Positions 2,417 through 47,945 of a DNA stretch of 64,000 bases are shown piece after piece. Source of the DNA: Halorussus litoreus (GTDB lineage: Archaea > Halobacteriota > Halobacteria > Halobacteriales > Haladaptataceae); NCBI RefSeq assembly GCF_003382685.1, contig NZ_QLVG01000033.1, forward strand, positions 1-64,000. The letters run 5' to 3'. The translations under genes were made by a program, and so were the position numbers. A model generated the notes under the pieces. It did not search any database. It had not been told where the DNA came from and worked only from the letters and a program-made list of their open reading frames with translations. Every line of letters starts with the position of its first letter. Positions within the stretch are counted from its first letter, which is position 1.

Positions 2417-3346
2417 ATGGCACGGACCGCGGACAAGATCGAATCGCTCATCGCCGAGGACGAGGAGATGAGCGACGCGCTGGCGGTCGTCTACGACCGC
2501 ACCGGCGGCGGCTCCGACGAGATCGCGTGGGGTGACGTGAACGACGAGCTTTCGAGCGGGCAGTGGGGCCGGCTCATCGAGAAGGACGTCCTCCGAAGCG
2601 ACGGCGACGAGTTCCGACTCGCCGACCCCGACGCGGTCGTGGCCGCGCTCGAAGACGAGCCGAACACGACCATCTCGACCGGCGAAACCGATACCGACAT
2701 CGAGTTGGACGTCGAGGACATCGACGACGACGGTTCGTCGTGGACCACGTGGGACAAGTTGGCCGGGCTGGGCTCTATCGGGCTGTTCCTCGGCTACTCC
2801 CAGACGCCCATCCGGAACGCGGTCGGCGGCTTCGTGAACCTCTTCGTCGGCCCGCTCGATCAGGTGTTACCGTTCTACGTTATCGTGCTGGTACTGGCGC
2901 TGGTGACAGGGCTGTTCACCACGCTCCTTCAGGCGAATCTGATGGACATGGAGAAGATGAGCATGTATCAGAATCGGATGAAGGAGATCCAGGAAAAGCG
3001 CAAGGAGGCCAAGGAACGCGGCGACGACGAGGCCATAGAGCGCATCCGCGAGGAGCAGATGGACGCGATGGGCGACCAGCTCGGCATGTTCAAAGAGCAG
3101 TTCCGCCCGATGGTGTGGACGATGTTCTTCACCATCCCCGTCTTCCTCTGGATCTACTGGAAGGTGTTCGGCGGCCACATCCCCGACGCCGAGTGGCAGA
3201 TCGTCGCACCGTTGATCGGTGAGGCGACGTGGCGCACCGGCGTCGTCGGGCCGATGGAACTCTGGATCGTCTGGTACTTCCTCTGCTCGATGGGGTTCTC
3301 CCAGATCATCCGGAAGTCGCTGAACATCCAGACGACGCCGACGTAG
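2417..3346 (+). CDS. DUF106/EMC3-TMCO1-like (YidC/Oxa1 superfamily) membrane protein
   Basis: The 309-residue protein has an N-terminal acidic, helical soluble part (residues 1-110). Membrane segments lie near 120-140, 155-175 and 230-290, separated by a long charged coiled coil, MKEIQEKRKEAKERGDDEAI. That layout (TM, cytoplasmic coiled coil, TMs) is the hallmark of archaeal DUF106 proteins, which belong to the Oxa1/YidC/EMC3 superfamily. They are thought to act as membrane-protein insertases with the Sec machinery. The position between adk and cmk is the conserved haloarchaeal order. The N-terminal soluble extension is longer than in minimal members and looks HTH-like, which I infer only from helical pattern. 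Confidence 0.9.
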   Translation: MARTADKIESLIAEDEEMSDALAVVYDRTGGGSDEIAWGDVNDELSSGQWGRLIEKDVLRSDGDEFRLADPDAVVAALEDEPNTTISTGETDTDIELDVEDIDDDGSSWTTWDKLAGLGSIGLFLGYSQTPIRNAVGGFVNLFVGPLDQVLPFYVIVLVLALVTGLFTTLLQANLMDMEKMSMYQNRMKEIQEKRKEAKERGDDEAIERIREEQMDAMGDQLGMFKEQFRPMVWTMFFTIPVFLWIYWKVFGGHIPDAEWQIVAPLIGEATWRTGVVGPMELWIVWYFLCSMGFSQIIRKSLNIQTTPT

Positions 3347-3442: not shown

Positions 3443-3580
3443 GGCGCGCGAGCAACGCGCGCGAGGGACGAGTCAGCACAGCGAAACGAGCAACGCAGGA
3501 GGCTGGGGAGGGTCGAGGCTCCGGTGCGGTCGCGGGGCGGTGCTGTGCGGTCACGCCGAGGCTCAAGCAGTAGCTAGCTT
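3443..3580 (-). repeat. Dispersed repeat family B, copy B1a (inverted)
   Basis: Read on the minus strand, this starts at AAGCTAGCTACTG and continues through a GACCGCACAGCAC-like block and CCTCCCCAGCCTC to a CTCGCGCGCGTTGCTCGC end. It matches copies B1b (3612-3751, opposite orientation) and B2 (33860-34030). Together with B1b it forms an imperfect palindrome of about 300 bp with a T-rich 31-bp centre (TCGTTTTTTATCG). It fills most of the 600-bp interval between the DUF106 gene and cmk. Confidence 0.75.
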
Positions 3581-3611
3581 CACGGTCGATTCGTTTTTTA
3601 TCGAGACTGCG

Positions 3612-3751
3612 AAGCTAGCTACTGCCGAGGCATATGAGAGACCGCAACCGCACAGCACTGCGACCGCACAGCACGGGCCTCAGACCTCCCCAACCTCCTG
3701 CGCTTCTCGGCCTTCGGCCTGCGATGCTCGTCCCTCGCGCGGTTTGGCGCG
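3612..3751 (+). repeat. Dispersed repeat family B, copy B1b
   Basis: It begins AAGCTAGCTACTGCCGAGGC and runs through GAGAGACCGCAACCGCACAG, GGGCCTCAGACCTCCCC and AACCTCCTGCG to CGTCCCTCGCGCG. The flanks agree closely with B2 near 33860, whereas the inner hairpin (GGCCTTCGGCC here) is different. No plausible coding capacity. It lies just upstream of cmk, separated by about 200 bp that hold only the cmk promoter region. Confidence 0.75.
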
Positions 3752-3948
3752 ACACGGAGGTCGCGTCCGCACACGCCGGGTGGAAAGATGAGCCAGCGCA
3801 GCCAGTGGAGAGACAATTTCGTCCAACTTATCCGGAAGTCCCACCAGCCCACGCGGTCCGAAAATCCGGAGCAGAGAGTACCCAACCCGCCGCCGTCGCA
3901 CCCGGGGAAGTTCAAAACCCCTTTCATAGCTCGCCGACGAGGGAAGAT

Positions 3949-19662: not shown

Positions 19663-19755
19663 CGGAGGTGGGTTTTCGGCCCCTGGGTAACTTCTTTTGG
19701 GTTCGGTGCGTGAGGATAGTGTTCAGAAAATCAGGTAGAGTTGATACGACGTTCT

Positions 19756-19883
19756 CGAAAGCCCTCGGCGCGCCGCGGTCGCTCAGCGACATCTCCTCCG
19801 CTCGCTGACGCTCGCTTCGGATAGGGGTCGCTGAGACGACCAAGCGGTGCGCGAGCGCGCCTCGCCCTTTCAGTCCGCCAGGG
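19756..19883 (+). repeat. Dispersed repeat family A, copy A2
   Basis: The element begins CGAAAGCCCTCGGCGCG and ends GCGAGCGCGCCTCGCCCTTT plus CAGTCCGCCAGGG. Outer ends are imperfect inverted repeats. An inner hairpin follows, GGTCGCTCAGCGAC pairing with GTCGCTGAGACGACC near 19825-19841. Ends match A3 (46335-46465), but the inner core is unrelated in sequence. It occupies the 382-bp gap between the VTT gene and the PH-like gene. Confidence 0.8.
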
Positions 19884-20005
19884 ATGTCGGCTGATTCACC
19901 GAGTGAAACCGAGAACTAGTCGCTCCTATCCGAACACCGCCCGGTGAGATGCGTTCGCAGCATCGAATGCGAACCGGAATTTGGGCGGACATGTCGCGAG
20001 GCTTA

Positions 20006-25747: not shown

Positions 25748-26290
25748 ATGACCGAACGCCGAACCGAGTTCGCCCGCCCGACGCCCGAACGCAGCGGGGC
25801 CGAGCCCGCTCGGTCTCGACTCGCGACGGCGCTGTTCGCCGTCGGGCTGGCGGTCGTCGCCGCGAACAGCGCGCTCTACTTCTTCGGCGTCGCGTCGCTG
25901 TCTCATCCCGCACTCTCCGTGCTGGGGCTGGGGCTGCTCGTTCCGAAGTACCGTCGAGAGCGGTGGGCGACGGGGGCACGACCGGCGCGCGAGCGACAGA
26001 CGAACACCAGCGTTCGTCAGTCGCTCGCGCGCCGGTCGCTTGCTCGGCTGTCGTTCGCAGGGCGGTCGCTTGCTCGACTGTCGCTCGCGCGCCGGTCGCT
26101 TGTTCGACTGTCGTTCGCAGTGCGGTCGCTTGCTCGGCGGTCCCTCGCGCGCCGGTTGCTGGCTCGCCTGTCGGCCCGCGACGGCGGCGGGACCTGCGCG
26201 TCGCTGGACGCGGAGCCGTCCGGCAGGAGACACCGGTCGGCCTTGCGGTTGACGTGGGCGTACTCCTCGGGGGCGTTCGCGAGCGCGTGA
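25748..26290 (+). CDS. Hypothetical membrane protein with repeat-derived C-terminus (doubtful 3' end)
   Basis: The first ~80 residues (MTERRTEFARPTPERSG...RLATALFAVGLAVVAANSAL, YFFGVASLSHPALSVLGLGL) look like a small protein with two membrane helices. Beyond residue 90 the frame enters a 30-bp tandem repeat and becomes SLARRSLARL-like, very basic and non-halophilic. That repeat lies antisense to the C-terminus of the convergent RNase H-like gene. So either the gene originally ended near 26010 and lost its stop, or only the N-terminal part is real. The two genes overlap by about 270 bp. Confidence 0.4.
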   Translation: MTERRTEFARPTPERSGAEPARSRLATALFAVGLAVVAANSALYFFGVASLSHPALSVLGLGLLVPKYRRERWATGARPARERQTNTSVRQSLARRSLARLSFAGRSLARLSLARRSLVRLSFAVRSLARRSLARRLLARLSARDGGGTCASLDAEPSGRRHRSALRLTWAYSSGAFASA

Positions 26291-33788: not shown

Positions 33789-33859
33789 TGGTTGGCTCTT
33801 CCGTGCTGGTTCGCGAGTTCGTAGATTCGACGTGTTGTTTTCTGGTGAGAAGATGAGTA

Positions 33860-34030
33860 AAGCTAGCTACTGCCGAGGCATCCGAGAGACCGCACAGCAC
33901 AGCACCGCACAGCGCCGCACCGCGACCGCGGGCCTCGTACCTCCCCAGCCTCGGCGGCCGCGTCTGCACTCGGTCCCCTCGCGCAGACGCGGCCGCCTCC
34001 CTCGCGCGCGTTGCTCGCGCGCGCCGACGA
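33860..34030 (+). repeat. Dispersed repeat family B, copy B2
   Basis: It begins AAGCTAGCTACTGCCGAGGC and runs through CGAGAGACCGCACAGCAC and GGGCCTCGTACCTCCCC to an internal perfect hairpin. That hairpin is GGCGGCCGCGTCTGC (33953-33967) with its complement (33983-33997). It ends CTCCCTCGCGCGCGTTGCTC. The flanks match B1b at 3612-3751; the hairpin does not. It fills most of the 324-bp gap between the HTH gene and the malic enzyme gene. Confidence 0.8.
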
Positions 34031-46055: not shown

Positions 46056-46286
46056 ATGACCGACGACCGATTCGACGTTCACGACCACCGCCACGCCCTG
46101 AAACTTCGGAAGGACGCGGGCGACACCGAACTCTGGGAGAACCGCGAGAACCTCGACTGTCCGGCCTGCGAGGAACAGTTCGACGAACTGCTGATCTCCG
46201 AGCGCAGGGAAAACAGCTTCAATCCGCCCGGCGGCCGGTTCTGCGTTGTTCGGGAAGAAGGGCGGATTCTGGTGTTCACGCACTAG
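46056..46286 (+). CDS. Small Cys-pair haloarchaeal protein (flagella-cluster family type)
   Basis: The protein of 76 residues begins MTDDRFDVHDHRHALKLRKD. DCPACEEQFDELLISERREN gives one CxxC pair near residue 35, and PPGGRFCVVREEGRILVFTH ends it. His residues near the N-terminus could complete a metal site. It resembles small proteins often labelled as flagella (archaellum) cluster proteins, though no such genes are nearby. It starts 57 bp after the CinA-like gene and may share its transcript. Function is not established. Confidence 0.7.
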   Translation: MTDDRFDVHDHRHALKLRKDAGDTELWENRENLDCPACEEQFDELLISERRENSFNPPGGRFCVVREEGRILVFTH

Positions 46287-46334: not shown

Positions 46335-46465
46335 CGAAAGCCCTCGGCGCGCTCGCGGTCGTCTCCACGGGATATCCGTCGGTCTCCGCACCGACCCGAC
46401 CGACGGATATCCCGTGGAGACGACCAAGCGATGCGCGAGCGCGCCTCGCCCTTTCATCCGCCAGG
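46335..46465 (+). repeat. Dispersed repeat family A, copy A3 with perfect 28-bp hairpin
   Basis: The outer ends CGAAAGCCCTCGGCGCGCTC and GCGCGAGCGCGCCTCGCCCT...CCAGG are imperfect inverted repeats shared with A2. The inner hairpin is a perfect 28-bp inverted repeat (46357-46384 with 46398-46425; loop of 13). It begins GGTCGTCTCCACGGGATATC and is unrelated to the A2 inner arm. No coding potential is seen in the 336-bp gap containing it. Confidence 0.88.
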
Positions 46466-46484: not shown

Positions 46485-46559
46485 GCGCCACTGGTGGCTG
46501 TCTCACCGGGCGCTACTGGCGGCTGTGACACCGGGCGCTACTGGCGGCTGTCTCACCGG
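46485..46559. repeat. 25-bp tandem repeat, three units
   Basis: Three contiguous 25-bp units, GCGCTACTGGCGGCTGTCTC... (46485-46509, 46510-46534, 46535-46559), differ from each other at two to four positions. A degenerate fourth start follows. The units lie just downstream of repeat A3 and upstream (3' side) of the amidohydrolase stop. There is no spacer variation, so this is not a CRISPR array. Confidence 0.85.
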
Positions 46560-46622: not shown

Positions 46623-47822
46623 TCACTCGACGCGTTCGCCCACGCCGCCCGAACCGAACCCGTCGCCGGCGACGACCTCGCCGCCCTTGACCACCGTCCG
46701 CGGATCGCCGATGGCGGCCACGTCGTCCAGCGGGTCGTCGTCGAGCACGAGGAAGTCGGCGTGGCTTCCGGATTCGAGCGTGCCGGCGTCGTCGAGGCCG
46801 ATCACCTCGGCGGACCGGCCGGTCATCGCGACGATGGCGTCCATCGGCTCCATCGCGTACTCGACCATGAAGGAGATCTCCGCGGCGTTCGTTCCGTGGT
46901 AGTTGAACGGGGTTCCGGCGTCCGTGCCGCTAGCCACGTCGACGCCCGCCTCGACCGCCAGTCGGAACGATTCGACGTGGCGCTCGTACACGTCGTTGGT
47001 CTTCCGGAGGCTCTCGTCGGTCGCGCTGTCGGCGTTGCGGACGATGTGGTGGGGCGCGGAGAGCGTGGGCACGAGCGTCACGTCCTCGGCGACCAGCAGG
47101 TCGACGGTCTCCTCGTCGAGGAACGTACCGTGTTCGAGCGTGTCCACGCCCGCTCGGACGGCCGCTCGCGCGCCAGCCGCGCCGTGGGCGTGCGCGGCCG
47201 CGTGGACGCCCCGGCGGTGCGCCTCGTCGACGAGGGCGTCCATCTCCGCGTCGGTGAAGGCGGGCGAGTTCGGGTCCGTGCCGGGCGTGGTCACCCCGCC
47301 GGTCGCCATGAACTTGACGAACTGCGCGCCCTGCTTGATCTGCTCGCGGACCGCCTTCCGGCACTCGGTCGGCCCGTCGACTTCGCGGCCGAGGTGGTGG
47401 CCGTGGCCGCCGGTGATGGTGATCGACCGGCAGTTGGCGACCGTCCGCGGGCCGGGCAGGTTGCCCCGCGCGATGCGGTCGGCCAGCACCACGTCGAGGT
47501 CCCGCGCGCCCATCGCGCGGACGCCCGTGACGCCGGATTCGAGGGTCGTCCGGGCGTTCTCGGCCTCCGTTAGCGCGAGTTCGGCGTCGCTCATCGCCGC
47601 CACGGACACGACGCTGGCCTCGCCCGACAGCGAGTAGTGGACGTGAGCGTCGACCAGCCCCGGCATCACCGTCTTCCCGTCGAGGTCGTACGCCGGTTCG
47701 TCGCCGCGAGGCTCCGCGTCGCCGACTGCCTCGACGCGGCCCGAGTCGGGGTCGACCCGGACCGCGGCGTCCTCGTGGACCGCACCCGTCCCGTCTATCA
47801 CGCGAGCGTCCCGAATAATCAT
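46623..47822 (-). CDS. Metal-dependent amidohydrolase (imidazolonepropionase/prolidase-like)
   Basis: This 399-residue protein has a composite beta-sandwich and TIM barrel. Metal ligands appear in VDAHVHYSLSG (HxH), FVKFMATGG (probable carboxylated Lys), HAAAHAHGAAG, and SGTDAGTPFN (Asp). It hydrolyses a cyclic amide or dipeptide; substrate not predictable. I chose the ATG at 47822 (MIIRDARVIDGTGAVHEDAA), which opens the sandwich domain. It is divergent from the membrane protein gene at 47946. Confidence 0.9.
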   Translation of the reverse strand: MIIRDARVIDGTGAVHEDAAVRVDPDSGRVEAVGDAEPRGDEPAYDLDGKTVMPGLVDAHVHYSLSGEASVVSVAAMSDAELALTEAENARTTLESGVTGVRAMGARDLDVVLADRIARGNLPGPRTVANCRSITITGGHGHHLGREVDGPTECRKAVREQIKQGAQFVKFMATGGVTTPGTDPNSPAFTDAEMDALVDEAHRRGVHAAAHAHGAAGARAAVRAGVDTLEHGTFLDEETVDLLVAEDVTLVPTLSAPHHIVRNADSATDESLRKTNDVYERHVESFRLAVEAGVDVASGTDAGTPFNYHGTNAAEISFMVEYAMEPMDAIVAMTGRSAEVIGLDDAGTLESGSHADFLVLDDDPLDDVAAIGDPRTVVKGGEVVAGDGFGSGGVGERVE

Positions 47823-47945
47823 CTGTGGAAACTTTTCGTTCCGATGGTTTGAATCTCTCGGACGGCGACCCCGCGTTGGTCGACCGCTCGACGTGACGAG
47901 TCCCCAGCCACAAGATACTCCCTCCGTCGGTGGAAGTTCCCGCAC

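Follow-up and report, generated by a model that had tools for sequence, protein, structure and literature searches.

Analysis of a 64,000-nucleotide stretch of Halorussus litoreus DNA (the whole stretch, here called the window) revealed a foldback element, A3, between a gene for a DUF7385 protein and a gene for an amidohydrolase. The source genome (G000) comprises 3.84 Mb in 75 contigs. An earlier note on this DNA had described a perfect 28-bp hairpin in A3, and this hairpin was found with its arms and loop at the positions listed in Table 1; the sequence on which the note had centred it, CACGGGATATCCG, lies within an arm. The frame of A3, GAAAGCCCTCG...TCGCCCTTTC, surrounds the structure, and GAAAG of the left frame pairs with CTTTC at 46451-46455, enclosing a conserved C-rich internal loop. 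Relative to dinucleotide shuffles, A3 folded with a z-score of -10 to -12 on either strand and with DNA or RNA parameters, and none of 200 shuffles folded as well.

Sequence comparison with a second copy in the window, A2 (19757-19882), confirmed that the two share their outer ends and that both keep GACGACCAAGCG. The hairpin of A2, which had been regarded as unrelated to that of A3, proved to have outer and second stems identical in kind, and only the apical core differs. A2 has no perfect arm longer than 9 bp, and pairing in its core, with tandem G.A mismatches, is confined to the minus strand. The MITE in which A2 lies has degenerate inverted ends (19719-19732 and 19923-19937).

Table 1. 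Coordinates of A3, its neighbours and A2 in the window
Feature	Positions	Strand	Remarks
A2, same family, inside an IS6-type MITE	19719..19940	+	hairpin from 19757
Left neighbour gene of A3, DUF7385 protein	46056..46286	+	76 aa
Whole A3 foldback	46336-46455		13-nt loop flanked by perfect arms of 28 bp each, within an outer stem
A3 left frame, GAAAGCCCTCG	46336..46346	+	lead consensus TCGAAAGCCC over 103 copies
A3 outer stem P1, 5' arm	46347..46356	+	sequence changes from copy to copy, pairing retained
A3 perfect 28-bp stem, 5' arm, GGTCGTCTCCACGGGATATCCGTCGGTC	46357..46384	+	second stem P2 fused with core stem
A3 apical loop, TCCGCACCGACCC	46385..46397	+	variant of class c core motif CTCTCCGCACnGCCC
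A3 perfect 28-bp stem, 3' arm	46398..46425	+	exact reverse complement of GGTCGTCTCCACGGGATATCCGTCGGTC; last bases GACGACC
A3 P3 linker, AAGCGATGC	46426..46434	+	
A3 outer stem P1, 3' arm	46435..46445	+	
A3 right frame, TCGCCCTTTCATCCGCCAGG	46446..46465	+	
Right-hand iterons of A3, GCGCTACTGGCGGCTGTCTCACCGG	46485..46559	+	3 x 25 bp
Right neighbour gene of A3, amidohydrolase (PF01979)	46623..47918	-	part translated

Two other kinds of repeat were observed in the window. Family B consists of inverted repeats around GCTAGCTACTGC (3444-3770 and 33857-34022) with GC-rich hairpins such as CGGCGGCCGCGTCTGC...GCAGACGCGGCCGCC, and it plausibly also contains a variable hairpin. Segments resembling family B adjoin copies of the A3 family (family A) at L003, L198 and L346, and one lies downstream of a TnpB gene at L193. 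An array of 15-bp direct repeats resembling GGTCGCTTGCTCGGC occupies 26012-26203.

Architecture and distribution of the family

Searching G000 with the whole of A3 yielded 57 matches at 40 or more distinct places, a lower bound obtained with 40 of 296 candidates scored. The 19-base tail was found five times exactly and 36 times with up to two mismatches, compared with 5 in the reversed control. Matches to A3 were obtained in 25 of the 40 genomes searched, its own genome counted; those outside the genus include Halosimplex, Natronococcus and other Halobacteriales and from plasmids of Haloarcula and Halovenus. The family is a real and abundant foldback repeat of haloarchaea, located between genes. 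No copies were found in a phage collection or by a pattern search of viral contigs, and carriage of the repeat by phages or viruses was dropped. In three pNG500-like Haloarcula plasmids (L372, L374 and L375, at about 2950-3100), the hairpin precedes an RPA-like (SOSS B) gene and hardly varies, whereas the ~250 bp on its upstream side have diverged; this is possibly a plasmid maintenance region.

A total of 103 hairpins from G000 and further genomes were parsed, 94 of them segment by segment. The element is approximately 120-130 bp long, and its frame closes a long hairpin. From the outside inward, the plus strand carries GAAAG, a C-rich internal loop, P1, the second stem GGTCGCTCAGC, which contains a purine bulge, then an A facing a GNNG interruption, and the core, followed by the P3 linker or mini-hairpin, the return strands and CTTTCAGTCC. 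The second stem bears two interruptions that are conserved across the family. In copies other than A3, P3 either reads TGAACGC or folds into a mini-hairpin whose loop is TNCG (GNA when read on the minus strand). Some copies are flanked by tandem repeats, recurring every ~48 bp on the left and ~25-30 bp on the right.

P1 varies with its pairing kept, and at least 12 distinct forms with perfect pairing were found. Within copies, the two arms of P1 matched at 0.969 (10-bp class) and 0.947 (11-bp class), against 0.862 and 0.748 (maxima of 2000 shuffles, 0.908 and 0.820) when the 3' arms were shuffled among copies; poorly registered pairs were excluded beforehand, which favours the observed values somewhat. 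The apical cores are interchangeable and fall into six named classes common to several species, with class counts that are approximate because the automatic labels are rough and placed several class d cores in class c. The genome search and core comparison that the earlier note had suggested thus revealed copies that are not identical and, at least for the minus strand, cores that are mostly self-complementary. In roughly 100 copies, taken from more than a dozen genomes, its model of a frame plus a variable hairpin held for the conserved frame and the variable self-complementary insert. The variable part itself is layered: the outer stem changes, the second stem is conserved and the core belongs to one of a limited set of classes; it is not a series of unrelated hairpins.

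The perfect hairpin is true of A3 and exceptional elsewhere, the median longest perfect arm of the 103 copies being 13 bp. The next longest arms were those of L026 (24 bp; looked at apart) and L004 (17 bp), the longest in any other parsed copy. Both interruptions of the second stem are missing from A3 and from L026, and both are present in the nearest relative of A3, L242 of Halorussus halobius HD8-83 (G001). Compared with L242, A3 has one base more in the 5' arm and three bases fewer in the 3' arm, each change making the arms complementary, and additionally a paired G-to-T/C-to-A change. Published template-switch mechanisms yield perfect hairpins by one mutation (PMC8794818). The perfected arms of A3 and L026 would be as expected from template switching, judging from these two cases.

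Insertion, MITE capture and turnover

Comparison of the A3 locus across the genus revealed 13 other genomes in which the DUF7385 and amidohydrolase genes are adjacent, with 0-100 bp between matches and no element. Apart from G000, an element was present at this locus only in G001, in a copy with a different core stem. Because the neighbouring genes are tightly spaced and the site is empty in 13 genomes and filled in two, A3 is an insertion. Between the orthologues A3 and L119, the right frame and the loop motif are kept and the core stem is not; the H. halobius orthologue has a right frame identical to that of A3, similar right-hand repeats and the loop motif CTCCGCAmCG..CCCG. Two further G000 copies, L016 and L013, are absent from G001 at the matching loci, in a comparison that gives no precise insertion boundaries because the intergenic DNA is too diverged. 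These species-specific insertions indicate past mobility.

Some of the copies have inverted ends of the GTAGTGTTCAGATAMGC type, which also bound a 695-bp element with an IS6-type transposase (PF13610; annotated IS6). Direct repeats of at least 7 bp were found at the ends of 8 of the 26 elements bounded in this way, among them the degenerate A2, compared with 0.55 expected by chance and a maximum of 4 in 500 shuffles. The target duplications of this set are ~8 bp long; that of A2 is only 5 bp and offset. PF13610 is present in G004 and was not detected in G000. A3 has no recognisable IS6-type ends and was not filed as an IS6-family MITE, and most copies outside G000 likewise consist of frame and hairpin without such ends. 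At the stringency used, the end sequence was found in 8 of 18 genomes of the genus, whereas some match to the element was found in all 18. Since frame and hairpin are widespread without IS6-type ends, we read some copies, A2 among them, as the result of capture by MITEs that belong to an archaeal IS6-type element; an origin by insertion of the hairpin into a MITE is less likely for the same reason. A second insert class was observed in the same MITE frame; its interior (CTCGCTGCGCGC..GCAGTGCTTGCGTCGCCGGGGTTC) is conserved and its outer stem varies (L061, L063, L064, L066, L074, L197 and L220).

Frames in which 1-24 nt replace the hairpin were also found. The 46 empty frames listed come from 12 of 18 genomes, with none in the reversed control. 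Many of their junctions lie on TCG(C) repeats, as in slippage, and from their sequences the empty frames look like slippage deletions. In G015, one short remnant, GAAAGCCCTCGCGCGGTTCGCGGTCGCCCTTTCAGTCC, recurs about a dozen times on many contigs; this genome may have amplified one empty-frame junction, and the empty form may thus spread by itself.

The genomes of two closely related species, G003 and G014, were compared at four loci with flanks about 88-96% identical. The hairpin was retained at the first two, with uncompensated changes at both and the loss of four bases from one stem at the second. At the third locus, hairpin and flank were replaced altogether. At the fourth, a 51-bp double-hairpin module with a CCGC repeat at its ends was present in G003 and absent in G014. 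Slow paired compensatory substitutions were not seen at any of the four loci, where stem diversity looks punctuated. Because the stem changes were uncompensated in two orthologous pairs, selection for structure may be weak. The double-hairpin module consists of CCGGAAGAC...GTCTTCCGAG followed by GTCAC...GTGAC, with variable stems, and examples of it are nested on both strands, each at a different place (L023, L037, L047, L063, L074 and L352).

Strand asymmetry and interpretation

If pairing were independent of the strand, A.C would be as frequent as G.T among the mismatches on a given strand. In P1, 16 A.C and 3 G.T mismatches were counted on the plus strand (G.T 16 and A.C 3 on the minus strand), and the 20 other mismatches were mostly C.C on the plus strand, equivalent to G.G on the minus strand. 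The cores revealed 11 A.C versus 1 G.T on the plus strand, the reverse of the minus strand (G.T 11). The de-duplicated count (25 versus 4; P = 1e-4) and the count over whole hairpins (61 versus 32, with the fixed interruptions mixed in) had the same direction. Since G.T and G.G predominate on the minus strand, its mismatches are of the tolerated kind. The minus-strand fold was the more stable one in 93 of 96 copies with RNA parameters and in 77 of 96 with DNA parameters, a difference that rests on related copies, in which several recurrent mismatches may be inherited. The class d core forms no proper stem on the plus strand; on the minus strand, it consists of GC pairs split by GA/GA mismatches, and its GNA or GNNA loop was found there in 18 of 103 copies, versus 1 on the plus strand. 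Because the mismatches are strand-asymmetric and one core class folds on the minus strand only, it is probably this strand that folds. Part of the bias could be due to mutation; unpaired bases, used as a control, offered too few changes. This asymmetry is the most informative property of the family.

The family as a whole is best explained, with a probability of roughly 0.5, as a non-autonomous foldback repeat with a minus-strand hairpin that is diversified by four processes and captured in part by MITEs. The minus strand of the hairpin would fold and would probably be recognised, more likely as extruded or exposed single-stranded DNA than as RNA. The four processes would be (a) change of core stems and tips in place, either as copies recombine or undergo gene conversion with one another or as a copy is inserted anew; (b) template switching inside the hairpin, which would perfect the arms and produce the 28 bp of A3; (c) insertion of small double-hairpin modules; and (d) hairpin loss by slippage between short repeats of the TCG(C) type. 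MITE-captured copies such as A2 could travel with the IS6-type transposase. Points against this explanation are the uncompensated changes in the two orthologous pairs, the lack of an IS6 transposase in G000 and the lack of a Y1 transposase (PF01797) in the copy-rich genomes G000, G001, G002, G009, G010 and G016, where none was detected; with Y1 absent from these genomes, RAYT/IS200 mobilisation was dropped. A more specific proposal, in which the frame would be recognised on one strand by a putative archaeal enzyme and the core classes would act as specificity or exchange modules, is improbable; such single-stranded DNA hairpins would, by analogy, work like those of attC or IS605 and be unrelated to them.

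Alternatively, the minus strand may give rise to a structured small RNA or an mRNA-borne element, with P1 covarying through selection for RNA pairing and the core classes representing subtypes. The stability of the minus-strand RNA fold, mismatches of the G.U type, the conserved interruptions and the nearly invariant hairpin beside diverged upstream DNA in the three Haloarcula plasmids favour this possibility, and covariation analysis by itself would label the family a structured RNA. Nevertheless, we rate it as somewhat unlikely, given that close species differ by complete stem replacement and by changes without compensation, and given the lack of a consistent gene orientation, which is indicative only (the gene calls are rough, and the left gene of A3 was miscalled). 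No Rfam family matched at the cut-off, weak sub-threshold matches being disregarded, and a recognised structured RNA family was dropped. The loops point in the same direction. The GNRA motif of RNA has a purine at the third loop position. The six GNNA types found in the family (seven loops) carry C or T at this position, which leans to DNA and is not decisive. GNA and GNNA loops are described as very stable in DNA (PMC4686876; PMC8373063, the latter citing Nakano 2002).

A neutral origin, in which dead MITEs and recombination debris contain palindromes that replication errors perfect and delete and that no molecule recognises, would account for the slippage-type deletions, the uncompensated decay and the perfected palindromes, and the one-mutation mechanisms mentioned above (PMC8794818) are in its favour. 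It is unlikely in view of the identical interruptions, frame and core classes that recur across species, the strong strand asymmetry and the mobility indicated by species-specific insertions. That the family is a plain IS6-family MITE with a varying internal palindrome is very unlikely, because the ends and target duplications of the subset with A2 are not recognisable at A3 and most copies outside G000, and, at the stringency used, the end sequence occurs in fewer genomes of the genus (8 of 18) than the element does.

Comparison with known repeat systems

As far as the literature searches reach, the family has no earlier name, and it is a variant, not previously described, of the haloarchaeal MITE, PATE and small-mobile-repeat kind. 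One qualification of the earlier note's reading is that known elements account for part of the frame, since A2-like copies lie inside IS6-type MITEs and nothing described comes closer than haloarchaeal MITEs, PATEs and small mobile repeats. Archaeal IS6-type MITEs (ISH14/ISH15-like) correspond to the 26 elements with common ends, A2 included, and ~8-bp target duplications in eight; in contrast to them, the hairpin and frame are independent of the MITE at A3 and in most copies of other genomes.

REP/BIME sequences with their RAYT proteins resemble the family in being numerous intergenic palindromes with conserved interruptions, and single-strand recognition is proposed here too; the Halorussus element, however, is longer (~120 bp), has variable stems and occurs in G000 without a Y1 transposase. 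PATEs and IS200-IS605-type elements are likewise palindromic, short, non-coding and haloarchaeal. Unlike them, the family is not associated with Y1, and blastn and motif searches of the four TnpB loci of G000 revealed neither the frame nor shared ends, so that identity with IS605/TnpB ends was dropped. In integron attC sites, one strand folds, the outer parts are constrained and the terminal structure varies (PMC2727003); the likeness is one of analogy, cassette arrays were not seen, and on present evidence the repeat is not a member of attC.

SMR-A of Haloquadratum walsbyi is described as ~110 bp long, with prominent inverted repeats, tens of copies per genome and no transposase, and the mobilisation of the Haloquadratum SMRs was called enigmatic in 2011 (Dyall-Smith et al. 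2011, PMC3119063). The Halorussus family is similarly haloarchaeal, of similar size, rich in inverted repeats, present in many copies and tied to other mobile elements. SMR-A inserts in near-terminal palindromes of IS605-type elements or PATEs, whereas the Halorussus hairpins occupy a frame of their own or an IS6-type MITE; A3 is located between two ordinary genes, not in an IS605-type palindrome, and the TnpB loci are without the frame. The sections consulted on SMR-A (HqIRS42/43/55; PMC3119063) make no mention of variable stems or strand asymmetry, features in which the Halorussus family may differ. The family provides a natural test of whether paired stem variation arises from RNA selection or from DNA template switching and copy exchange. 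Since one strand can be named as the folding one, and since close species contain perfected palindromes, inserted modules and frames without a hairpin, the enigmatic mobilisation of SMRs becomes testable.
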